DNA of 64,000 bases from Flavitalea plasmicola (GTDB lineage: Bacteria > Bacteroidota > Bacteroidia > Chitinophagales > Chitinophagaceae): assembly GCF_030546645.1 (NCBI RefSeq), contig NZ_JAUOTO010000002.1, forward strand, positions 124,001-188,000, in the 5' to 3' direction. A model generated the notes under the pieces. That model did no database searches. It was not told where the DNA came from and worked only from the letters and a program-made list of their open reading frames with translations. Numbering within the stretch: the stretch's first letter is position 1; every line of letters starts with the position of its first letter. Positions 39,302 through 50,390 of the stretch are shown piece by piece. Position numbers and translations under genes: made by a program.

Positions 39302-39904
39302 ATGGCCGAAATGCTTCAAAAGGATGAGATCGTAGTCAGGGATATCATTGACACTGCCAGAACCCTTTTCAAAAAGACCGGGTTTAAGAAGACGACCATG
39401 GGCGATATCGCCCGGAGTCTGGGCAAGGCCAAGAGTTCCCTGTATTACTATTATCCCAGCAAGGAAGACATTTTCGAAGCCGTCCTCCATGCAGAAATGG
39501 ACGAATTACTGGATCAGATCCATGAATCCATCGGGCAGGCTGCCACGTCGAAGGAAAAGCTGATCAACTATTGCCGGTGCCGCCTCCATAAGCTAAGCCA
39601 GCTATGCAATCTCAGCGATGCGCTGAAGAGCGAGATCGCGGACCTTCATTGTGTCATGACGGACCTGAAGAGCAGGTTTGACACGACGCATGTGGCATTG
39701 GTGAAAGGCATTCTGGAGGAAGGGGTCCGCAACGGGGAATTCAAGAAGCTCAATAACGACAACATCGAATTAGTGGCTTACCTGATGGTGAGCAGTTTCC
39801 GGGGACTGGCCATGCCGCTGATGCTTACAGGCGCGCAATGTCCCCGCATGGACCTGCAGATCGACTCCATCGTGGATATCATGGTCGAGGGGATAGGACG
39901 ATAG
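39302..39904 (+). CDS. TetR/AcrR family regulator
   Basis: A 200-aa regulator with an N-terminal helix-turn-helix (TTMGDIARSLGKAKSSLYYYY then PSKEDIFEAVL, about residues 31-62). The ligand domain is unassigned. It is convergent with the inositol-lipid operon and its last 26 nt overlap the 3' end of the PAP2 gene, so a link in regulation is possible but not shown. Confidence 0.88.
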   Translation: MAEMLQKDEIVVRDIIDTARTLFKKTGFKKTTMGDIARSLGKAKSSLYYYYPSKEDIFEAVLHAEMDELLDQIHESIGQAATSKEKLINYCRCRLHKLSQLCNLSDALKSEIADLHCVMTDLKSRFDTTHVALVKGILEEGVRNGEFKKLNNDNIELVAYLMVSSFRGLAMPLMLTGAQCPRMDLQIDSIVDIMVEGIGR

Positions 39905-40820
39905 CGCAACGGTCCACCCAACGGCGGAATCCGCCCATCTTCCCATAAAGATAATTGAACAGTACGATGCCGGTGCATCCGCAGGTGATGCCGGCCAATA
40001 CGTCCAGCACATAGTGGTGGCTGGAATAGACGGCGGCAAACCAGATCCCTGCCATGATGGAGCCGAAAAGGAGGTTGATCCATCCCTGTTTTGTACGAAT
40101 ACCGTAATACAGCACGATCAGGGGATAGCTGGCGTGCAGGGAAGGCATCGCAGCAAATACATTGGAGCTTTTGGCGTACAGGCCGGCAAAGACCGAAACA
40201 TGCAGGAGGCTGTCGAAGCGGCCCAGTCCCGCCGTATTGCCCGGAGTATGCGGATTGAACTGGAATCCGTATTGCTGCACATACCATGGCGGCGCGGCGG
40301 GATAAGCGTAATAAATGACGAAGCCCAGCAGGTTTACCAATAAGAAAGTGAGGGAGAATTTTAAAAAGGCTGTTTTGTCCTTATAGAAAAGATAGCCTGC
40401 AAAGGCCAGTGGGACAGGAATCCAGCAGAGATAGAAAATGCCGGTGAGCAGATCGAGCAAACTGTTGGTATGGGCGGCCCAATATTCGTTGGGCGTCTGC
40501 CCGTGGATGCCAAAGAGATTTTTTTCCGCAAGGTACAGGCTTTCAATATGCACGACATTGTACCTGTAGTTGGGGAAGGCCTTCATGGAGTCAAAGATGA
40601 TCCAGAACACGATGAAGACAGAAAAGCCCAGGATAAAACGGCGGGTGGGGCCAGAAAGATAAAATAAGGTATTGAACAGCAGCACGAGGAAGACCTGATC
40701 GGACTTATAGCCAATCAGCCAGGCTGCCAGCAGCAGGTAAGCGACCGAGATGGCGGTGACTTTCAGGACCATTTTATAAGTGAGAGGCGTCCTCGCAGGG
40801 GCGACGCTGGTTGAATCCAT
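39879..40820 (-). CDS. PAP2-family membrane protein, Aur1-like (putative inositol phosphorylceramide synthase)
   Basis: A 313-aa protein with about eight membrane segments. The PAP2 motifs are of the Aur1/PAP2_3 type: AAMPSLHASYPLIVLYYG (phosphate His) and YSSHHYVLDVLAGITCG (His and Asp). Aur1 moves phosphoinositol from phosphatidylinositol to ceramide. As the last gene of an operon that starts with inositol phosphate synthase and contains a phosphatidyltransferase, the same reaction is the best guess here; a plain lipid phosphatase is the alternative. A GTG at 40826 overlaps the upstream stop codon and could also be the start. Confidence 0.75.
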   Translation of the reverse strand: MDSTSVAPARTPLTYKMVLKVTAISVAYLLLAAWLIGYKSDQVFLVLLFNTLFYLSGPTRRFILGFSVFIVFWIIFDSMKAFPNYRYNVVHIESLYLAEKNLFGIHGQTPNEYWAAHTNSLLDLLTGIFYLCWIPVPLAFAGYLFYKDKTAFLKFSLTFLLVNLLGFVIYYAYPAAPPWYVQQYGFQFNPHTPGNTAGLGRFDSLLHVSVFAGLYAKSSNVFAAMPSLHASYPLIVLYYGIRTKQGWINLLFGSIMAGIWFAAVYSSHHYVLDVLAGITCGCTGIVLFNYLYGKMGGFRRWVDRCAIVLSPRP

Positions 40821-40825
40821 TTCCA

Positions 40826-42142
40826 CTAGATTTTTATACGTTGCATCATCTCTTTACCATTGTCCGGATCGATGCCTCTGAATTCGAGGTACTCGACATT
40901 CGGCGACCAGAAGCTGCCGCCCGGGTTGATCTTGATAAAGACCCTGTTCAGCAAGATTTGTTTGTTATCGATGGTGACATAGACGTGATGGAGGTTGTCC
41001 AGGGGTGACCTCCGCAGGTACATGGGTATCTTTTTATAGGATACGAAACGCAGCTCGTAATTGCCGTTGCCCAATGGCTGGGCTTTGATACCATAGGCAA
41101 AATGGCGCTGTATAAAGTTCAGCTCCTGCCGTTGTTTCTGCTCTGTGTAGCGGATCCAGAGCACATGGACGGGTTCGTCGGGATCGGGAACCCCATTCTT
41201 TTCGTTGAGCTCGCAGATGATGGTATTGATATTCGGCGTACGCTGCAGGTAGAATAGTGAATTGTTCCGATGAGGGGGGATGGGAAAGCTGTCCGGCGCG
41301 GCGTTGACGGGCGTAACGGTGACGCCGACCTTTTGTTTCTGTGCCAGGGCGGATGTAGCCAGGGTGGATGCCAGGATGAGCCAGAGGAAGATGCTGGCCT
41401 TTTTCACGGGGCTGGAGGGGGAACTGGCGGTACCGGTCTTTTGTTTTTCCTGTTCTTCCAGGGCTTTTTTGGCGTCGCGCAGGCGGCCGATGGCCGTTGC
41501 GTTGGCCAGGATAGCCATTACCGTTAGCGGGAGCGTGAAGATGGAAATGGTCTCGAACATGGGGAAGGAGGAATTGGGCCAATGGACCTTATAGTTCCCG
41601 CCCATCCACCTGGAGGCGATGCCGCAGGCCAGTGCGGAGACGCCGATGAGGATGACCCTTTCCGGGCGCTGCATCAATCCATCTTTGCATTCGATGCCTA
41701 ATCCTTCGGCGCGCGCCCTGGTGTAGCTGACCATGAGGCTGCCGATCATACCGATGAAGGCCACCAGGCTGCTGAGAAAATAGTGATGGGCCACCAGGTA
41801 GTAGCATATACCCAGGAACAGGATCAATTCGCTATAGCGGTCCAGTACGGAGTCATACAGGGCCCCGAAGCGGGAACTCATATTACCCAGGCGGGCCACC
41901 TGTCCGTCCAGCATATCGAACAGGCCTGCGAACAGGATGAGCGCTCCGGCCCAGCCCACGTAGGAAAGGTCGCCGCGATTGCCTTTCTCTGCTCCTTCTA
42001 TAAAGATGATGGAAACCCCGATGTTCAGCACCAGTCCGATGGTCGTCACCATGTTGGGGGTAAGACCCGCCCGGATCAGCAACCGGACGAATGGATTGAT
42101 GACCTTGTATATTCCTTGTTGTAGTTGATTGCGAATGCTCAT
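40826..42142 (-). CDS. CDP-alcohol phosphatidyltransferase fused to a DUF4833 domain
   Basis: A 438-aa fusion. Residues 1-230 form a membrane phosphatidyltransferase with the complete DG..AR........G...D...D motif in MLDGQVARLGNMSSRFG and ALYDSVLDRYSE. A charged linker follows (LEEQEKQKTG), then a second membrane or signal-like segment (about 248-267) and a C-terminal region (NNSLFYLQRTPNINTIICEL ... PMYLRRSPLDNLHHVYV) that I assign to DUF4833. In this operon the enzyme probably makes phosphatidylinositol phosphate from CDP-diacylglycerol and inositol phosphate. The DUF4833 part would face the periplasm. Confidence 0.82.
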   Translation of the reverse strand: MSIRNQLQQGIYKVINPFVRLLIRAGLTPNMVTTIGLVLNIGVSIIFIEGAEKGNRGDLSYVGWAGALILFAGLFDMLDGQVARLGNMSSRFGALYDSVLDRYSELILFLGICYYLVAHHYFLSSLVAFIGMIGSLMVSYTRARAEGLGIECKDGLMQRPERVILIGVSALACGIASRWMGGNYKVHWPNSSFPMFETISIFTLPLTVMAILANATAIGRLRDAKKALEEQEKQKTGTASSPSSPVKKASIFLWLILASTLATSALAQKQKVGVTVTPVNAAPDSFPIPPHRNNSLFYLQRTPNINTIICELNEKNGVPDPDEPVHVLWIRYTEQKQRQELNFIQRHFAYGIKAQPLGNGNYELRFVSYKKIPMYLRRSPLDNLHHVYVTIDNKQILLNRVFIKINPGGSFWSPNVEYLEFRGIDPDNGKEMMQRIKI

Positions 42143-42151
42143 GTCCTCAGA

Positions 42152-44692
42152 TCAAAAGTCAAATTTAGCCCTGGCCCGGATGCCCCAGGTAGGGATCTCC
42201 GGATGTTCCAGGTAGGTGAAACGTTTGATAAAATCTATTCTCACCAGCTTGAAAATATTAGCGATGGCAAAACCAGCCTCCAAATAAGGCCGGTGGTCGA
42301 GGGTAAAGGTCTCTCCTATCCCATTTGTCAGGGGGAACTGCACGAGCTCCGGGTGTTTTGTCGGATCGTTCTCATTCCTCATCCCTCCATATACCAGCTT
42401 GGCCTCGATGACCTCTCTCCATTTCAGCTTTTTCAACAGGGGGATCTTATTGAAGAAAAACCCATTGAAATAGTGGTCGATATATACGGCGGCAGAGTGA
42501 TCTGTGATAAACTCCATGAAGTTCATCAGGTTGAAGCTCTGCAGCTGATAGGCAAAGGTTTGGTTGGCGTGCTGGATATTCAGCAGCGGCCAGGGAATCT
42601 TACCCAGCGTATAATTTCCATCGATGGTAATATCCGTGTATCCCAGATAGGAGAGATAAAACCGCTTGAAAAACTCCGCTCCGAAATTATGATAGTTGTA
42701 CTCTCCGCCAAACAATCCCTTCACCCCTGTCGAATACCTGAGTGTAAATATCGGATATTTATTAAAAATAGGCACTCTGTACAGCTTGCCTATATAAAAC
42801 TGTTCGTGGGGCGCCCAGCGGAATTCGGTGGATAATTCGCTGGTGGTGATCGTCTGCAGGGTATCCGCTCCCCCGCTTTTTACATAGGAGATGGTGCCTG
42901 CGGGCGTTTGCTTCCACCATTTTAGTCCAAATGCATAGGAGAAATGATCTCCGAACTCATGCTTGTAGTCCAGCCGGAAGATATTGTTATAAAGCCATTT
43001 GTCGTTGTTACCCCGTTTGAATGACAGCAGGAAGTTGTCTTCCTGTACGAACTGGAGCTCCTGTCCGGGGATCTTCGTATCCTTCTGGTAGCTGGCCCGG
43101 ATATAATTCTGGGGGAAGCCGTAGATACTTTTATTGTTGAGGGAATAGGTGCCGCTGATGAAATACTTCCACTTCTGGTCCTTGAAACCATAGGCGGCAT
43201 AGGCTTCGGAGTAATATCGTGTGCTGAGCTTGGTGGTGGTCCTGCCTCCGAAGCGGAGACGGAAGCCTTCCACGGGGTTGAAGCTGTAGAAAGTGCTGGC
43301 GGGGCCTATTTCGAAGATCCCGGCCTGTTTGTAGCCGGCGAGCAGCAGGGTGCCCCAGTCCATCAGGCGGCGGAAGGATTTCATGTGCTGGAGGCTATCG
43401 ATGTTGGCGTAAACCTTTGATTCCGCCTTTGTCAGGGTGTCATGGCGGTAGGCGACCCAAAAGCTGTCCCGCTGGGTTTCCGCGCTGTCAAGGACCACTT
43501 CTGCAGGGCCCCGGAAAACGCTGTCGTCCACGGGGACATTGGTCTTAAAGTCCTTGAACGAGACCGTTCGTTCCCCGAATAGCCCTGTCCCCGACTTATT
43601 GATACCGAAGTCGCCCAGGACATCGCTTTTCTGGAGCAGATATCGACCGTCGGGCATCCGCTGGAAGTCCTGGTCGATCTTCATCTCCCGGACGAAGTTG
43701 AAGTTGATGCTTTTGCTCACCAGGAGGCGCAGCTTCTGGATCGCATAATTCCCGTCGAGCGTGATCCACATGGTACCCCTGAAAAGCAGGTCGTTGGGGT
43801 TCCTGGGGCGGAAGGACAGCCGCACCAGCTTCTGGGTATCCACCGTCACTGTATCGTCGATGAAATACATGTAGAAAGTGGGCCCCATATCCGCGATGGG
43901 GCTGAGAAAGAGGTTGGTAAAGACGGAAATATTATTATCGTATACGTTGAAATCCTGGTATAAGCGATTGAGGTACATGCTGATGCCCTGCATGTCCACA
44001 AATTCGCCGAAGTCTACCTTTCTTTTGCCTTTTACGACCGTCTTGGTCTTCTCGGGATTCTTCCGGTAATAAACATCCGACAGCGCTTCCTCCAGGTATA
44101 CGGGAGAAAGGACGCGGCCTTCCAGCTTGGTGGTATCCCCGTTCTCCACCAGGAAGTGGTAGGGTTTCAGCAATTTGTTCTTGCCCAGCTTCGTCTCGTT
44201 GGCCTTGTTGACGGAGACCTGCAGCTTCTCGTATTTCTCATAGGTGGCATAGTTGTAAGATTCCATCCTGTTGGCATTCTTATGGTCGATGACCTGGCGG
44301 ATCAGCTCGACAGCGGGATTGCCTTTGTTGCGGTATTTCTGCTTCTTGTTCCTCACCGTGGCCTTGCCCAGCTCCTTGAACTGCCGGGTGAGCGTCAGCT
44401 GGATATCCAGGGTGGGCAATGAGTCCAGGTGGATGGTGTAGGGGTCGTAGCCTACAATGGTGACGACGATGTCGATGGGGAATTTTTCCGCGGGGAGGCG
44501 GAACCTGCCGTCGGCATTGGTCCGGGCGCCGCCATGCTGGCCTCTGATCGATACGCTGGCATTGGATAATGGGGTGCTGGTAGCGGCGTCCCTGACATAT
44601 CCTGTCACGGTCTGCGCCATGCTGTTGAGAGTGAATGCTAATGCCAATATCGTTGCGATACCGGCGGTCATAATGCTTGTCTTAAGGTTCAT
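42152..44692 (-). CDS. DUF5686 outer-membrane protein with carboxypeptidase-like regulatory domain
   Basis: An 846-aa protein: signal peptide (to about residue 27), a CarboxypepD_reg beta-sandwich (VTGYVRDAATSTPLSNASV, GRFRLP), then the DUF5686 region (NPAVELIRQVIDHKNANRM, YNYATYEKYEKLQVSVNK) and a predicted C-terminal beta-barrel ending IRARAKFDF with a terminal Phe. It is expected in the outer membrane. It lies 9 nt before the phosphatidyltransferase start within the inositol-lipid operon, which suggests a role in placing or moving the lipid, or just shared expression. Confidence 0.85.
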   Translation of the reverse strand: MNLKTSIMTAGIATILALAFTLNSMAQTVTGYVRDAATSTPLSNASVSIRGQHGGARTNADGRFRLPAEKFPIDIVVTIVGYDPYTIHLDSLPTLDIQLTLTRQFKELGKATVRNKKQKYRNKGNPAVELIRQVIDHKNANRMESYNYATYEKYEKLQVSVNKANETKLGKNKLLKPYHFLVENGDTTKLEGRVLSPVYLEEALSDVYYRKNPEKTKTVVKGKRKVDFGEFVDMQGISMYLNRLYQDFNVYDNNISVFTNLFLSPIADMGPTFYMYFIDDTVTVDTQKLVRLSFRPRNPNDLLFRGTMWITLDGNYAIQKLRLLVSKSINFNFVREMKIDQDFQRMPDGRYLLQKSDVLGDFGINKSGTGLFGERTVSFKDFKTNVPVDDSVFRGPAEVVLDSAETQRDSFWVAYRHDTLTKAESKVYANIDSLQHMKSFRRLMDWGTLLLAGYKQAGIFEIGPASTFYSFNPVEGFRLRFGGRTTTKLSTRYYSEAYAAYGFKDQKWKYFISGTYSLNNKSIYGFPQNYIRASYQKDTKIPGQELQFVQEDNFLLSFKRGNNDKWLYNNIFRLDYKHEFGDHFSYAFGLKWWKQTPAGTISYVKSGGADTLQTITTSELSTEFRWAPHEQFYIGKLYRVPIFNKYPIFTLRYSTGVKGLFGGEYNYHNFGAEFFKRFYLSYLGYTDITIDGNYTLGKIPWPLLNIQHANQTFAYQLQSFNLMNFMEFITDHSAAVYIDHYFNGFFFNKIPLLKKLKWREVIEAKLVYGGMRNENDPTKHPELVQFPLTNGIGETFTLDHRPYLEAGFAIANIFKLVRIDFIKRFTYLEHPEIPTWGIRARAKFDF

Positions 44693-44707
44693 CCTGTCTT
44701 ATTAGTC

Positions 44708-45088
44708 TTATTTAAATACATATCTTTTCTGCAATACGTAATTGTAAAATACAGCCACTGCTATTGAAACTATGATCTTGGCAAGCAAATAATTCATCGT
44801 TGTGAAATGGGTCAGCAGGTAAAAACCGGATACGTTGAGGACCAGGTTGCCTATCCAGACCAGCATATAACGGGTGAGCTGGGCGGTCCATTTGCTCTCC
44901 TGCGCGCTGAAGACCCAGTTCCGGCTGATCGAAAAATGTGTCACTCCTCCGCAAATGCTTCCCGTGGCGCTGCCTGCGACTTTGGGGACCCCAAGGCCCT
45001 GCACCAGGGCATAGGTAACCAGGAAATCGACCCCTGTAGCCAGCAGCGAAACCAACTGCGCCTTTGAGAAAGTTATCATCCTCTTCAT
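44708..45088 (-). CDS. GtrA family membrane protein
   Basis: A 126-aa protein with four membrane helices and GtrA features: FLVTYALVQGLGVPKVAGSA, GGVTHFSISRNWVFSA, and a terminal YVLQKRYVFK. GtrA-like proteins are linked to moving polyprenyl- or lipid-linked sugars across the membrane. Its ATG overlaps the PgpA stop codon (ATGA). In this operon it may help translocate a lipid headgroup precursor; inference only. Confidence 0.87.
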   Translation of the reverse strand: MKRMITFSKAQLVSLLATGVDFLVTYALVQGLGVPKVAGSATGSICGGVTHFSISRNWVFSAQESKWTAQLTRYMLVWIGNLVLNVSGFYLLTHFTTMNYLLAKIIVSIAVAVFYNYVLQKRYVFK

Positions 45089-45540
45089 ATCTTCGTCAGC
45101 ACAATTAGTTGTAATACAATATTGGAGTAAATTCCCGCCAGCACGTCGTCCATCATAACACCCCAGCCGCCATTTAGTTTTTCCATTCTTCGGATATATA
45201 ATGGCTTAGCAATGTCAAAAAACCGGAAAAGCGCCAGGCCCACCAGCACATAGTGCCATCTAACAGGGATCAGCAGCAGGGTGATACACATACCTGCCAC
45301 TTCATCTATGACAACTTTGGAGCTGTCCTTCCCCCATTCTTCCTCCACTTTATTTGCGCTCCAGATACCCAGGGTAAGGATGGCCAATGTCACGGTGACT
45401 TCTATAAAAACAGACTCATTTCCACCCGCCCCGGCAACATACCAGACTATACAGCAGGCGACGGCAGCCACTGTGCCGCCTCCTTTTGGTGTATAACCTA
45501 TTCCAAGACAAGTAGAAATGAGTCGATGGAATCGTCCCAT
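45085..45540 (-). CDS. pgpA: PgpA-type phosphatase (phosphatidylglycerophosphatase A / PIP phosphatase)
   Basis: A 151-aa membrane phosphatase. PgpA motifs are TCLGIGYTPKGGGTVAAV at the N-terminus, SKVVIDEVAGMCITLL and LALFRFFDIAKPLYI followed by GGWGVMMDDVLAGI. Family members dephosphorylate phosphatidylglycerol phosphate. Between MIPS and a phosphatidyltransferase gene the more likely substrate is phosphatidylinositol phosphate. Start and stop codons overlap those of both neighbours. Confidence 0.88.
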   Translation of the reverse strand: MGRFHRLISTCLGIGYTPKGGGTVAAVACCIVWYVAGAGGNESVFIEVTVTLAILTLGIWSANKVEEEWGKDSSKVVIDEVAGMCITLLLIPVRWHYVLVGLALFRFFDIAKPLYIRRMEKLNGGWGVMMDDVLAGIYSNIVLQLIVLTKI

Positions 45541-46856
45541 CAGGCCGTTATTTCTTCCTCCGCATAGGTCAGGCCCTCACCATTGACCAGCTCTTCGCCC
45601 ATAAGTTTACGCAGGGCGTTCTGAAGATTATGCAGCTGCTTGAAAATATCGTGTTCTGTCCGGAAGCCGGGGATGGTCTGGGGGGACTTGAAATAGAAAG
45701 ACAACCATTCCTGTATCCCACTGAGACCGGATCTTTTGGCCAGATCGCCAAATAAGGCCAGGTCCAGCACCAGCGGGGCAGCCAGGATACTGTCGCGGCA
45801 TAAGAAGTTGATCTTGATCTGCATCGAGTAACCCAGCCAGCCGAAAATATCAATATTGTCCCAGCTCTCCTTGTTATCGCCATGAGGGGGATAGTAATTG
45901 ATCCGGATCTTATGGTACAGCTCGCTATACAATTCCGGGCTCAGATCCGGGCGGAGGATGTCCTCCAGGACGCTGAGCTTGGAAACCTCCTTGGTACGGA
46001 AATTATCCGGTTCGTCCAGCACATAGCCGTCGCGGTTACCTAAAATATTGGTAGAGAACCAACCTTTTACGCCAAGGGCGCGGGCCTGCAGGCCGGGGGC
46101 GAGGATGGTCTTCATTAACGTCTGTCCTGTCTTGAAATCCTTGCCGGCGATGGGGGTCTCTGTCTGCTTGGCCAGCTCCGTGAGCGCGGGGATATCACAG
46201 GTGAGGTTGGGCGCGCCATTGAGGAAGGGGACGCCCAGCTTGATAGCGGCATAGGCATAGATCATGCTGGGGGCGATGCGGGGATCATTTTCGCGGAGCC
46301 CTTTTTCGAAAGCTTCCAGGGTTTCATGCACATCGGATACTTCCGTATATTTCTCGGTACTGCCGCACCATACCATCACCAGGCGATCGCAGTCGCGGGA
46401 ATCCTGGAACTGGGCGATGTCGTCCATCAGGGCTTCGGCCAGCTTCATTTTATTGGCGCCCGTCTTGATGTGGGTACCATCGAGGTTCTTGATATAAGCT
46501 TTGTCAAACACCGCCTTCATGGGCTTCAGGGCTTCCAGTTCGGGGCGGAGCGCCTGTAAGAGTCCGGGTTCCAGCACTTTGGCCCTGCTGGCGGCTTCGT
46601 ATACATTGTCCTCGTATACGTCCCAGCCGCCGAAAACCAGGTCCTGGAGGTTGGCCAATGGAACGAAATCTTTTATTTTAGGATAATTGTTCCCGGATTT
46701 CCGGTTGAGGTGAATATTTCCCATCTGTGTGATAGATCCAATTGGTTGCGCTAATCCTTTCTTTATTGCTTCAACGCCTGCAATCAAAGTAGTTGCTACG
46801 GCGCCTAAACCGGGGATCAACACTCCCAGCCTGCCAGTCGGTTCTTTTACTTCCAT
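45540..46856 (-). CDS. ino1: Inositol-3-phosphate synthase
   Basis: A 438-aa NAD-dependent enzyme converting glucose 6-phosphate to myo-inositol 3-phosphate. The Rossmann motif is GVLIPGLGAVATTLIAG; other family blocks are VFGGWDVYEDN, VMVWCGSTEKY, PFLNGAPNLTCDIPAL, AGKDFKTGQTLMKTILAPGL, STNILGNRDG and the catalytic Lys in YSMQIKINFLCRDSILAAPL. It starts the six-gene operon; the stop codon TGATG overlaps the pgpA ATG by one base. Confidence 0.95.
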   Translation of the reverse strand: MEVKEPTGRLGVLIPGLGAVATTLIAGVEAIKKGLAQPIGSITQMGNIHLNRKSGNNYPKIKDFVPLANLQDLVFGGWDVYEDNVYEAASRAKVLEPGLLQALRPELEALKPMKAVFDKAYIKNLDGTHIKTGANKMKLAEALMDDIAQFQDSRDCDRLVMVWCGSTEKYTEVSDVHETLEAFEKGLRENDPRIAPSMIYAYAAIKLGVPFLNGAPNLTCDIPALTELAKQTETPIAGKDFKTGQTLMKTILAPGLQARALGVKGWFSTNILGNRDGYVLDEPDNFRTKEVSKLSVLEDILRPDLSPELYSELYHKIRINYYPPHGDNKESWDNIDIFGWLGYSMQIKINFLCRDSILAAPLVLDLALFGDLAKRSGLSGIQEWLSFYFKSPQTIPGFRTEHDIFKQLHNLQNALRKLMGEELVNGEGLTYAEEEITA

Positions 46857-47120: not shown

Positions 47121-48242
47121 TTACACGCTGATCTTTTTATCCCTGGCGGTGTTCCTCCATTCTCCCGTGAGCCGGCCCTCCTCGATGGTATAAACACGCT
47201 CATACAGATTGACGGTGGGGCAGATATGCATGGGCAATCCATACACTATGTCTCCGGGATGGTGTCCGTGCTCTTCGCTGGCGGATACCACCAGGTGCTC
47301 TTCGCTTTGTCCTGTGGCAATCCAGTCGGGAGCGTTGAGAAAGCTTACCCGGCGGGGCAGCTCATTTTCGGCGGCAATGGATTTATGTCCCAGGTCCAGG
47401 CAAAGTCTGCCGGGGGCCGGCAGAGAGATGACGCGGCTCACCACGAGTGCGGCGGGCAGGAATCCCTGTTCCGGGCATGTGTCACTGTAACCCTTATCCC
47501 AATAGACAAAAGTGCCGGGACTGCATTCCACGTCCGGTCTTTTGCAGTGAACGGAAAAGGTAGGGCTGCCTCCTGCGATGACGATGGGATCGGCGAAACC
47601 TGCCTGTATCAGGGCTTGCTTCAGGGCCGCGACCGCGGCAAAAGCGTCATCGCATTTCTGCTTCCGCGCGTCGAATTCCACGTCGCGGATATGACCGTCA
47701 TAGGCGTGCAGGCCGATGGGAGTGACGCCGGCGGTCGATGCGGCTGTCCGGTAGAGTTGGAAGGCGGCCGCGCCCGGTGGGATGCCTGTACGGTTCATCC
47801 CAATGTTCAAATCGAGGTAGACGGAGATATTCAGGCCGGCGGATGCAAAAGCGGCGCCCATCGCTGTCAATGCTTCTTCGTTGTCCGACAGGCAGGAGCA
47901 TTTCGCTGCCGGGTATTTGCGGACAAGTGAAATGAAGCGCTGCAGTTTGGGACCTATCGGCTGATAGGCCAGGAGGATGTCCGTAGCGCCGGCGATGGCC
48001 AGCATCTCGGCTTCGGCGATGGTGGCGCATTTGAATTTATGGATACCGGCGTCCAGCAACAGCCGGGTGACATCGGGAGATTTATGCGTCTTGACATGCG
48101 GGCGCAGGCGGGCGGGGTGGCCGGCCATTTCGACGGCCAAAGCTATATTGGCTTTTACGCGATGGGGATAGACCACCAGTGCAGGTGAATCTATTTGGTC
48201 CACCGTCTCTATGCGGTACCATTCAGGCGCGATGGGTATCAT
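47121..48242 (-). CDS. D-threonine aldolase-like PLP enzyme (alanine racemase N-terminal fold)
   Basis: A 373-aa fold-type III PLP protein. The PLP Lys lies in RLRPHVKTHKSPDV, and VYLDLNIGMNRTGI and LHAYDGHIRDVEF are barrel motifs. The C-terminal beta domain has LGHKSIAAE, SEEHG and MHICPTVNL, the metal-binding region of D-threonine aldolases. It may cleave or dehydrate D-3-hydroxyamino acids. It lies 10 nt after the RidA gene, which suits a reactive enamine product being cleared by RidA. ATG 48242 is preferred to a TTG at 48266. Confidence 0.83.
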   Translation of the reverse strand: MIPIAPEWYRIETVDQIDSPALVVYPHRVKANIALAVEMAGHPARLRPHVKTHKSPDVTRLLLDAGIHKFKCATIAEAEMLAIAGATDILLAYQPIGPKLQRFISLVRKYPAAKCSCLSDNEEALTAMGAAFASAGLNISVYLDLNIGMNRTGIPPGAAAFQLYRTAASTAGVTPIGLHAYDGHIRDVEFDARKQKCDDAFAAVAALKQALIQAGFADPIVIAGGSPTFSVHCKRPDVECSPGTFVYWDKGYSDTCPEQGFLPAALVVSRVISLPAPGRLCLDLGHKSIAAENELPRRVSFLNAPDWIATGQSEEHLVVSASEEHGHHPGDIVYGLPMHICPTVNLYERVYTIEEGRLTGEWRNTARDKKISV

Positions 48243-48252
48243 CTGAGCATAT

Positions 48253-48723
48253 TTAATATAATTCAAATAAGGCTTCTATCTCCACGGGGATATTGTCGGG
48301 CAGCGAGCCCATGCCTACTGCGCTGCGGACACCTACGCCATTCTCTTCTCCCCAGACGGAGGCAAACAATTCGCTGCAGCCATTGATCACATAGGGATGC
48401 CGGTCGAATTCCGGCGTGCAGCCCACCATGCCCAATACTTTTATCACTCTTTTCACTTTGTCGAGGCTACCCAGATTGGACTGTATAGTGGCAAGGATCG
48501 CCAGTCCCGTCTGCCGGGCGGCCAGTCTGGCCTCTTCTATGTCCAGGTCGGCGCCTACGCGACCGATGATGAGGGTCCTGTCCTCTTTCAGAGGACCATG
48601 ACCGGATACATAAAGATATTTTCCATCTATCAGGCAAGGTTTGTACACGCCCAGGGGCGTCGGGGCGGGCGGCAATTGCAATCCCAGTGCGGCGAAATTC
48701 ATTTCAGGAGTTTGATCGGGCAT
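48253..48723 (-). CDS. RidA family protein
   Basis: A 156-aa YjgF/YER057c/UK114-type protein that would deaminate reactive enamines or imines. Visible are LIDGKYLYVSGHGPL, ARQTGLAILATIQSNLGSLD, RVIKVLGMVGCTPEF and GVGVRSAVGMGSLPDNIPVEI. The last block is like the RidA end, where an Arg (here in VRSAVG) binds the substrate carboxylate. It forms a pair with the PLP enzyme downstream. Confidence 0.88.
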   Translation of the reverse strand: MPDQTPEMNFAALGLQLPPAPTPLGVYKPCLIDGKYLYVSGHGPLKEDRTLIIGRVGADLDIEEARLAARQTGLAILATIQSNLGSLDKVKRVIKVLGMVGCTPEFDRHPYVINGCSELFASVWGEENGVGVRSAVGMGSLPDNIPVEIEALFELY

Positions 48724-48744: not shown

Positions 48745-49077
48745 TCAGGGGGCCGAAGTTACGGGATTTTTTTGTCCATCTTCCCGGCGCAATGCCTTAA
48801 AGCAGGCGATAAAGCCGCCGTCCATGAAAGTATTGGCGACGCTGCTGCACACCAGGAAATACCGGGGGATCCCTTCCGGATGTTGGGAAGACAGCTGTGG
48901 GATATAATGAAGGACGAATATACTGCTGTAAAACAACATGCCGGAAGCCAGCCAAAAATCGGGCCGGGCGGAAAGGGACTTGTCCGAATTATTCAGCAGG
49001 ACATCGGCGAGGGCGGCCACCCATTCAAACCCCATGCCGTACAGGAGGTAGGTCACGAACATTATTTTCTCCAGCAT
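48745..49077 (-). CDS. Internally deleted paralogue of the two upstream membrane proteins
   Basis: A 110-aa protein aligning to both ends of its 235- and 237-aa neighbours: its first 23 residues match their N-termini (YLLYGMGFEWVAA), and from ALADVLLNNSDKSLSARPDF it matches their last third. About 118 residues are missing in frame, joined at a shared Ala-Ala. It keeps GMLFYSSIFVL and NTFMDGGFIACF. It may be a functional short form or decaying; the reading frame is intact. It overlaps the upstream paralogue by 53 nt. Confidence 0.65.
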   Translation of the reverse strand: MLEKIMFVTYLLYGMGFEWVAALADVLLNNSDKSLSARPDFWLASGMLFYSSIFVLHYIPQLSSQHPEGIPRYFLVCSSVANTFMDGGFIACFKALRREDGQKNPVTSAP

Positions 49078-49732
49078 GAGTTTGTCGTTTTAAGGTAACA
49101 AAGCAAGCGATGAAGCCGCCGTACATGAACGCGTTGGCGACGGTGCTGCATGCCATAAAATACCAGCCTACCAGGGCGGCCGATCTGAAGAAGATCTCGG
49201 CGATATAGATAAGCGTGAATATGCTGCAATAGAAGAGCATGCCGGCGCTCAGCCAGAAAGCGGGTTGCGCGGACAAGGGAGTATCGGATGTGTTTACCAG
49301 GATATCGATGAGGGCCGCGCAGGTGGTGATCAGCTGTATGAACATGGTGAACAGCTGGAATGAAGGATTCAAATCGTTCAATGGCGGTCCCCAGATATAA
49401 TTTGCGGCCGAGCCCAGGGTCAGTACGATCAGCATTGCCGTGAGCAGGCGTTTTGCCCATCTCCGCGACAACAGGCGGAGCTGAATGTAGACGATGCCTC
49501 CCGTCTCGCAGTAAGCCCAGATATTATATAAAGAATGGGCTTTGATGTGCAGCGGGATGGCGAACTGGTCGGACGTCTCCACTACCACCGTCGCCCAGCA
49601 TAAGACGACCAGCCATTTATAGGCGTCCTGCCAGGCAGCCCGTCGGTTGCGCTGGCCGATGATGGCGGCGGCCCATTCAATTCCCAGAAGGTACACTGTG
49701 TAGGTCAGGTACACTACCAGCCGTAGGACCAT
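49025..49732 (-). CDS. Tandem membrane protein paralogue 2, unknown function
   Basis: A 235-aa protein with six to seven hydrophobic segments. Conserved with paralogue 1: YTVYLLGIEWAAAIIGQR, RAAWQDAYKWLV, AANYIWGPPLNDLNPSFQLF, FWLSAGMLFYCSIFTL and FMYGGFIACF. No known family comes to mind. The two full copies look roughly two-thirds identical by eye. Its last residues are encoded by the first bases of the next copy in another frame. Confidence 0.72.
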   Translation of the reverse strand: MVLRLVVYLTYTVYLLGIEWAAAIIGQRNRRAAWQDAYKWLVVLCWATVVVETSDQFAIPLHIKAHSLYNIWAYCETGGIVYIQLRLLSRRWAKRLLTAMLIVLTLGSAANYIWGPPLNDLNPSFQLFTMFIQLITTCAALIDILVNTSDTPLSAQPAFWLSAGMLFYCSIFTLIYIAEIFFRSAALVGWYFMACSTVANAFMYGGFIACFVTLKRQTHAGENNVRDLPPVRHGV

Positions 49733-50390
49733 AAGGTTGTTTTTTTAAGGTGAGGAAGCAGGCGATAAAGCCGCCGTACATAAAAGTATTGGCGATGAGG
49801 CTGCATACTAGAAAAAACCAGCCTATCGGACCAGGCGATCTGAAGAACAGCAGGAAGATATAGTTAAGGACGAATACGCTGCAATAAAAGAGCATACCGG
49901 CGTTCATCCAGAAAGCGGGCTGTGCGGACAAAGGGACAGCGGTCGTTTTGTCGCCCAGTATATCGATGAGAGCCGCGCAGGTGCCTATCAGCTGGATGAA
50001 CAGGGTGAACAGCTGGAAGGGGGGATTTAAATCGTTCAATGGCGGACCCCAGACATAATTTGCGGCCGTGCCGATGGTCAGCAGGATAAGCATTGCCGTG
50101 AGCAGGTGTTTTGTCCATTGCTGCTTCAGCAGGCGGCGCTGAATGAAGATAATGCCGCCCGTCTCGAAATAGCCCCATATATTATAGAAAATATGGTGTT
50201 GGACGCGCAGCAGGATGAAGCAGTGGTCGGTCATCTCCACTACCACCGTCACCCAGCATAAGATGACCAGCCACTTGTAGGCATCCTGCCAGGCAGCCCT
50301 TTTGCAACGCTGGCCGACGATGGCTGCAGCCCATTCAAAGCCGAGGCAGTACACTGTGTAGACAAGGTATAATATCACCCGCAGGAGCAT
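49677..50390 (-). CDS. Tandem membrane protein paralogue 1, unknown function
   Basis: A 237-aa membrane protein, first of three tandem copies (YTVYCLGFEWAAAIVGQR at the start, AANYVWGPPLNDLNPPFQLF in the middle, FMYGGFIACF near the end). The Asn-Asp-Leu-Asn-Pro block and Trp-rich segment are fixed in both full copies and probably matter for function. It ends 56 nt inside the next copy. The NPP gene begins further upstream on the same strand, its stop codon 27 nt away. Confidence 0.72.
   Translation of the reverse strand: MLLRVILYLVYTVYCLGFEWAAAIVGQRCKRAAWQDAYKWLVILCWVTVVVEMTDHCFILLRVQHHIFYNIWGYFETGGIIFIQRRLLKQQWTKHLLTAMLILLTIGTAANYVWGPPLNDLNPPFQLFTLFIQLIGTCAALIDILGDKTTAVPLSAQPAFWMNAGMLFYCSVFVLNYIFLLFFRSPGPIGWFFLVCSLIANTFMYGGFIACFLTLKKQPYGPTAGSVPDLHSVPSGN

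Follow-up and report, generated by a model that had tools for sequence, protein, structure and literature searches.

Bacteroides thetaiotaomicron makes inositol lipids with a gene cluster that is described in the main texts of two studies (PMC9246714, PMC8791184). In this cluster BT_1526 is the myo-inositol-3-phosphate synthase (MIPS), BT_1525 a PgpA-like phosphatidylinositol phosphate (PIP) phosphatase, BT_1524 a GtrA protein, BT_1523 the phosphatidylinositol-phosphate synthase (PIPS) and BT_1522 the phosphatidylinositol-dihydroceramide synthase. Here we analysed a stretch of 64,000 nucleotides (the window) from Flavitalea plasmicola (contig NZ_JAUOTO010000002.1, positions 124,001 to 188,000), which holds a six-gene operon of the same five families in the same relative order, a likeness that holds by family and not by sequence comparison. 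Unlike BT_1522-BT_1526, the window operon has a DUF5686 gene between GtrA and PIPS and a DUF4833 domain fused to PIPS, and no serine palmitoyltransferase (SPT) was found in the genome. The new element beyond the known cluster is DUF5686 and DUF4833, conserved envelope proteins for which we found no described function, while the enzymes are already known. On balance, and with no great confidence, we read the locus as an inositol phospholipid operon that has an envelope arm of its own.

The phosphatidylinositol (PI) pathway is well supported by the sequence of the window genome. The PIPS half of the fused protein scored 394.5 bits on the BT_1523-type model NF052561, above its curated cut-off of 350 bits, and carries the full CDP-alcohol transferase motif DX2DGX2AR...GX3DX3D. 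MIPS and GtrA belong to the families of the BT_1522-BT_1526 type cluster, and so does PgpA by family assignment, which makes it a candidate for action on PIP (Table 1). An earlier note, made from this DNA alone, had proposed that PI is made via PIP by six co-directional genes at 39879..46856. The proposal is supported by the PIPS score, and all six open reading frames (ORFs) were found on the minus strand with agreeing Pfam families. The note's overlaps of 1-3 nt and gaps of 5-15 nt were nearly right: from MIPS to PAP2 we measured -1, -4, +15, +9 and -1 nt, with MIPS/PgpA overlapping by 1 nt and PgpA/GtrA by 4 nt. Its view of GtrA as a new element had to be given up, since GtrA belongs to the known cluster as BT_1524 (PMC9246714, PMC8791184).

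The operon is real and conserved, and its arrangement is beyond chance, because the full order MIPS-PgpA-GtrA-DUF5686-PIPS-DUF4833-PAP2 recurs in 59 of 96 compared loci (window included), or in 63 when loci with an additional DUF5686 or PAP2 copy are counted. The order noticed in the earlier note is thus conserved widely beyond this genome. The 96 loci are the window, 15 loci from an even sample of the class (295 genomes), and 80 named loci, which are the best matches and are biased to close kin, with many Pedobacter. PIPS homologues were present in 16 of the 295 class-sample genomes, 15 above the cut-off and one (G276) just below.

DUF5686 lies just before PIPS in 78 of the 80 named loci. With stricter spacing (-100 to 400 nt, ORFs taken stop to stop) 75 of these 78 pass, and L096, L097 and L108 fall outside. 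The two named exceptions are L083, which is cut by a contig end, and L036, where GtrA and PIPS leave no room for DUF5686. In the class sample (here 16 loci, window included) DUF5686 precedes PIPS in 11, with a 287-nt gap in L121, and it is not at that place in G110, G032, G107, G171 and G276. DUF4833 accompanies PIPS in 75/80 named and 12/16 class-sample loci. Counted by matches above 100 bits, DUF5686 was found in 78/80 named and 10/15 class loci, and DUF4833 in 75/80 and 11/15. DUF4833, about equally conserved, received no separate attention in the earlier note, which also lacks the signal-peptide-like segment ahead of this domain and the TetR gene (Table 1).

PIPS and DUF4833 are encoded as one ORF in 57 of the 80 named loci and separately in 18. 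In the window protein the DUF4833 domain covers residues 297-435 (147.4 bits, Pfam). Anchoring succeeded for 54 of the 58 fused relatives, and every one of these 54 has a comparable hydrophobic stretch ahead of DUF4833. Within the stretch before DUF4833, A-Q occurs in 37/54 and the strict A-x-A-Q in 19/54, a pattern that we take to resemble a signal peptidase I site. Unfused DUF4833 forms that we inspected, such as that of L112, start with a similar hydrophobic segment. CDP-alcohol transferases are generally assigned six transmembrane helices, with the C terminus in the cytoplasm, so one further segment would place DUF4833 in the periplasm, its predicted location. A profile search of solved structures with DUF4833 gave nothing significant (best E 0.22). 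A second, unfused DUF4833 gene is present in the window genome (G000:C12:82574-82987; L172:8437-9003) with no recognised lipid genes beside it.

The window DUF5686 protein consists of an N-terminal hydrophobic segment (7-25), a CarboxypepD_reg domain and the DUF5686 region, and ends in a C-terminal Phe. It is predicted to be an outer-membrane barrel. When solved structures were searched with its profile, the matches lay in the CarboxypepD_reg regulatory domain only. Our search of a library of 5.39 million papers found neither the name DUF5686 nor DUF4833, and the main texts of PMC9246714 and PMC8791184 contain neither. A listing of papers on the operon in Pedobacter gave no lead, and BT_1527 was found named in one paper. 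In the main text of PMC9246714 a carboxypeptidase-regulatory-like protein, homologous to BT_1527, is placed close to both cluster types. Since DUF5686 proteins carry such a domain, this may be a partial earlier sighting of DUF5686; in the Bacteroides-like L119 there is a CarboxypepD_reg protein without a DUF5686 match.

We propose the following route. MIPS would supply inositol-3-phosphate, which PIPS would join to CDP-diacylglycerol at the cytoplasmic face, and the PgpA-like enzyme would strip the phosphate to give PI, as homology to the tested B. thetaiotaomicron enzymes suggests. GtrA may then help PI to reach the periplasmic leaflet, and the Aur1-like PAP2 protein would hand phosphoinositol to a second lipid at the periplasmic face. 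DUF4833, predicted to be periplasmic, and DUF5686, predicted to be an outer-membrane barrel, would receive the lipid or place it in the outer membrane, as their conserved position and predicted location suggest. Judged from sequence, lipid export by these two proteins is plausible. In its strongest form the proposal is that GtrA, DUF4833 and DUF5686 make up an inner-to-outer-membrane route for inositol (sphingo)lipids, its periplasmic part fused to the synthase, and that in SPT-less genomes the Aur1-like enzyme uses a non-sphingoid acceptor, giving an undescribed inositol lipid class. We put this form forward tentatively and regard it as unlikely to hold in full. According to the 2024 Caulobacter localisation study, in the part available to us (PMC11087976), flippases or transporters for bacterial sphingolipids have not yet been identified. 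DUF5686 and DUF4833, predicted as a barrel and as a periplasmic protein, share one operon, and one of the two is fused to the synthase, which makes them concrete candidates for this envelope crossing.

The behaviour of GtrA mutants bears on this route. Deletion of BT1524 is reported to lower inositol phosphorylceramide (IPC) and raise PI (PMC8791184, main text), consistent with a pathway interrupted after PI has been made and before IPC is. A profile search of the PDB for solved relatives of GtrA gave weak CrcB matches only.

Several observations weigh against an envelope arm. Deletion of BT_1524 gave no lipid change by thin-layer chromatography in the main text of Heaver et al. (PMC9246714), contrary to the flipping idea. 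DUF5686 is a general Bacteroidota family, and 249 of the 295 class-sample genomes match the window protein at 1e-20. No operon gene was seen next to twelve non-operon copies, apart from weak matches to the epimerase in L246 and L248. No CDP-alcohol transferase was found with the queries used within the surrounding stretch of 15 of 31 class-sample DUF4833 matches, and the PIPS-DUF4833 fusion occurs in only 2/16 of the class sample (window included). Finally, L117 and the loci L119 and L120, which are Bacteroides-like by gene content, have the biosynthetic genes without adjoining DUF5686 or DUF4833, so the two proteins are not required for synthesis everywhere.

These observations could also be explained if DUF5686 and DUF4833 serve envelope maintenance or quality control and are co-transcribed because inositol lipids alter outer-membrane properties, without being lipid transporters. 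The wide occurrence of DUF5686 in genomes without this PIPS, its non-operon copies and the DUF4833 genes away from the operon all speak for this explanation, which we nevertheless consider somewhat unlikely. The position of DUF5686 is fixed between GtrA and PIPS, DUF4833 is fused to PIPS in most named loci, and both proteins are retained beside a different CDP-alcohol transferase route. This route resembles the B. vulgatus-type alternative cluster (NTP transferase, CDP-alcohol transferase, HAD) outlined in the main text of PMC9246714, whose headgroup attachment enzymes differ from those of the window operon. In L188 (G242:C23, 8524-17163) a like, CDP-inositol-type set, with genes for an NTP transferase, a CDP-alcohol transferase, LPG_synthase_TM, HAD and PfkB proteins, lies between operon-type DUF5686 and DUF4833 genes, and the L188 DUF5686 groups with a Dyadobacter operon copy (SH-aLRT 99). 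Fixed position, fusion and retention in L188 together argue for a direct link of DUF5686 and DUF4833 with headgroup lipids, as in the envelope arm that we favour.

The remaining 16 of the 31 class-sample DUF4833 matches adjoin a CDP-alcohol transferase, which is PIPS in 12, the alternative enzyme in one and a transferase accompanied by GtrA in three. A cluster of SDR, PhyH dioxygenase, CDP-alcohol transferase, GtrA and DUF4833 genes was seen in L177 (4628-8537), L180 (8685-12377) and L184 (5311-8972); in L184 DUF4833 is split across two ORFs. Operon copies of DUF5686 do not form one exclusive clade: on a quick 51-row tree the label changes 7 times.

The earlier note had gone further and inferred that IPC is made here, and had pointed to an SPT gene elsewhere in the genome as a check. 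Many relatives do have SPT, but the window genome has none above the cut-off of 640 bits of the model NF047600, so IPC in this organism is not supported by its sequence. The best match (362.3 bits) is one of three strong alpha-oxoamine synthases; a fourth match of 25 bits was left unassigned. This first synthase is glycine C-acetyltransferase (KBL; 689.6 bits, over its cut-off), and the second is closest to BioF (348.6 bits, below the cut-off of 426). The third (C11:1180735), which is encoded outside the operon, matched the cysteate C-fatty acyltransferase structures 28eh and 7u7h with 582 and 604 bits, versus 238 for SPT. Its residue 281 is Lys, which in an alignment stands opposite Ala273 of an SPT; Lys281 is reported in the available text of PMC9304779 to distinguish SulA from SPT. 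The protein looks like a sulfonolipid-type cysteate acyltransferase and hints at the amino-lipid backbone for which the genome is equipped. Sulfonolipids carry a sulfonate where ceramide has its 1-hydroxyl (PMC9304779), so they offer no obvious acceptor there.

One alternative is an ordinary B. thetaiotaomicron-type operon, in which PI and then IPC would be made here too, with the SPT block missing from the assembly only or with ceramide taken up. The PAP2 gene is intact with its catalytic motifs and scores 325 bits on the phosphoinositol dihydroceramide synthase model NF052609, within the 314-330 bits of SPT-bearing relatives. Moreover, the closest relative, L032, whose PAP2 protein is 79% identical, has SPT, GNAT and epimerase genes in one three-gene block, and one local gap in the draft could hide all three, which also counts against a different acceptor in the window genome. 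However, the assembly (19 contigs, 8.73 Mb) is rated 100% complete, the three strong synthases are all assigned to non-SPT types, and no close GNAT or epimerase orthologues were found in the window genome, the nearest matches being 28% and 30% identical. Furthermore, 16 other operon-bearing genomes of 59 also lack SPT above the cut-off. We therefore find the ordinary operon doubtful as an account of this genome.

These 59 genomes comprise those of all 22 named loci without nearby SPT, 21 of the 58 first counted with it and all 16 of the class sample. Loci lacking a nearby SPT were deliberately over-represented, so the tally gives no prevalence: 39 genomes have SPT above the cut-off, three are ambiguous and were not counted as lacking it, and 17 are without (window included). 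Of the 17, six are rated at least 99% complete (G000, G290, G135, G195, G171, G276), three come from named isolates (Spirosoma fluviale, Hymenobacter caeli, Sediminibacterium goheungense) and eight are metagenome-assembled genomes (L033, L034, L035, L036, L038, L061, L065, L111). DUF4833 and DUF5686 track the inositol headgroup and not SPT. Of 15 SPT-less loci holding PAP2, 14 have DUF4833 and 14 have DUF5686 at some place in the locus; in SPT-bearing loci DUF4833 was found in 33/39 and DUF5686 in 35/39.

The PAP2 protein itself matched the structure of AUR1 (9vj3; E 4.5e-20, 75.6 bits) over residues 44-292 of 315. Its PAP2_3 domain and His/Asp motifs, AMPSLHAS and HHYVLD, place it in the PAP2/AUR1 superfamily, and family and PSLH and HHxxxD motifs are common to it and the AUR1 IPC synthase. 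We take PSLH and HHxxxD to be the catalytic His/Asp motifs of PAP2 enzymes. On NF052609 (cut-off 480 bits) the window protein reached 325.1 bits, compared with 313.9-329.5 for four SPT-bearing relatives and 571 for the Bacteroides-like L120. Ten proteins were scored in all, one of which, from L119, was in a wrong frame and gave no match. Since SPT-bearing relatives score alike, the low score follows lineage, and we discarded it as a sign of SPT loss. A search for a residue that separates the PAP2 proteins of SPT-bearing and SPT-less genomes also failed, the best column reaching only 0.64 total-variation distance (two ambiguous rows and L074 dropped).

Because no SPT was found in the window genome, its PAP2 protein probably has an acceptor other than ceramide. 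In SPT-less genomes it might instead be just a PI-specific phosphatase or phospholipase, or an inactive relic; these genomes have no ceramide supply above the SPT cut-off and hence no known acceptor. This is the explanation we believe least, since PSLH and HHxxxD are kept in 15/15 SPT-less PAP2 proteins and SPT absence maps to 9 or 10 changes on the PAP2 tree, at least five of them on well-supported branches. PAP2 retention without SPT thus recurs. That Aur1-like enzymes persist in genomes in which SPT was not found points either to a new acceptor lipid or to scavenging.

For most named relatives ceramide is the probable acceptor, because SPT and other ceramide-type genes adjoin the operon, and where SPT lies beside it the product is probably IPC. 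In flanks of up to 10 kb, SPT (>600 bits) was found in 57 of the 80 named relatives. The count was 58 at 100 bits, but the L061 match has only 507 bits and its genome no SPT above the cut-off. The same flanks contain GNAT ceramide-synthase-like genes in 52 loci, epimerase/CerR-like genes in 55, fatty acid 2-hydroxylase-like genes in 59 and delta-4 desaturase-like genes in 3; one representative per family was placed by Pfam, and the GNAT and epimerase genes take their names from family and position. The SPT representative (L112) scores 746 bits on NF047600, over the cut-off, and also matches the solved SPT 3a2b. For the class sample, a nearby SPT was seen in 5/15 loci, two of these being truncated where their stretch ends.

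A fatty acid hydroxylase in the operon goes with SPT in raw counts (26/39 loci with SPT, 0/15 without; Fisher p 5e-6). This link was weakened by control for kinship, which leaves 4 independent pairs (mean agreement 0.7, none opposing), too few for significance to be reachable. In L039 (9911-10885) a sphingolipid delta-4 desaturase-like gene (Lipid_DES, PF08557) lies within the operon by a fatty acid 2-hydroxylase-like gene, with relatives in L044 and L084. This pair suggests unsaturated, hydroxylated bacterial ceramides. L044 and L078 carry this Bacteroidota operon under the labels Azovibrio restrictus and Williamsia, which are probably binning errors; the L044 PAP2 is nearly identical to that of L039. 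In several loci, such as L038, L092, L095, L097, L104 and L118, MIPS was not found in the stretch around the operon. It may lie elsewhere, or inositol may be taken up instead.

Table 1. Features of the inositol lipid locus of F. plasmicola (positions in the window).
Feature	Position	Strand	Evidence
MIPS, 438 aa	45540..46856	-	Pfam PF07994/PF01658, 343 bits; best PDB match 7nwr, E 6e-161
PgpA-family phosphatase, 151 aa, candidate PIP phosphatase, BT_1525-like by position and family	45085..45540	-	PF04608, 142.9 bits
GtrA-family small membrane protein, 126 aa, BT_1524-like by position and family	44708..45088	-	PF04138, 75 bits
DUF5686 protein, 846 aa, predicted outer-membrane barrel	42152..44692	-	PF18939, 182.7 bits; PF13715/PF13620 (CarboxypepD_reg)
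PIPS fused to DUF4833, 438 aa, one ORF	40826..42142	-	CDP-OH_P_transf and DUF4833; NF052561, 394.5 bits
Signal-peptide-like/transmembrane segment between PIPS and DUF4833 (residues ~249-267)	41342..41398	-	hydropathy peak 249-267, then ALA-Q
PAP2_3/Aur1-like phosphoinositol transferase (putative), 315 aa	39879..40826	-	PF14378, 84.2 bits
TetR-family regulator, convergent	39302..39904	+	PF00440, 58.9 bits

The TetR gene converges on the PAP2 gene, with 26 nt shared, and its product is a possible regulator of the operon. TetR relatives (>100 bits) were found in 37 of the 80 named loci, and in several relatives (such as L061, L065, L068 and L091) MIPS is directly preceded by a TetR gene. Upstream of MIPS in the window (47121-48723) are a D-serine dehydratase-like gene and a RidA-like gene, which have matches above 100 bits in only 6 and 3 of the 80 named loci, every one of which belongs to the closest group (L032-L038). 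They are followed at 48745-50390 by similar small membrane proteins in tandem (110, 235 and 237 aa), apparently duplicated.

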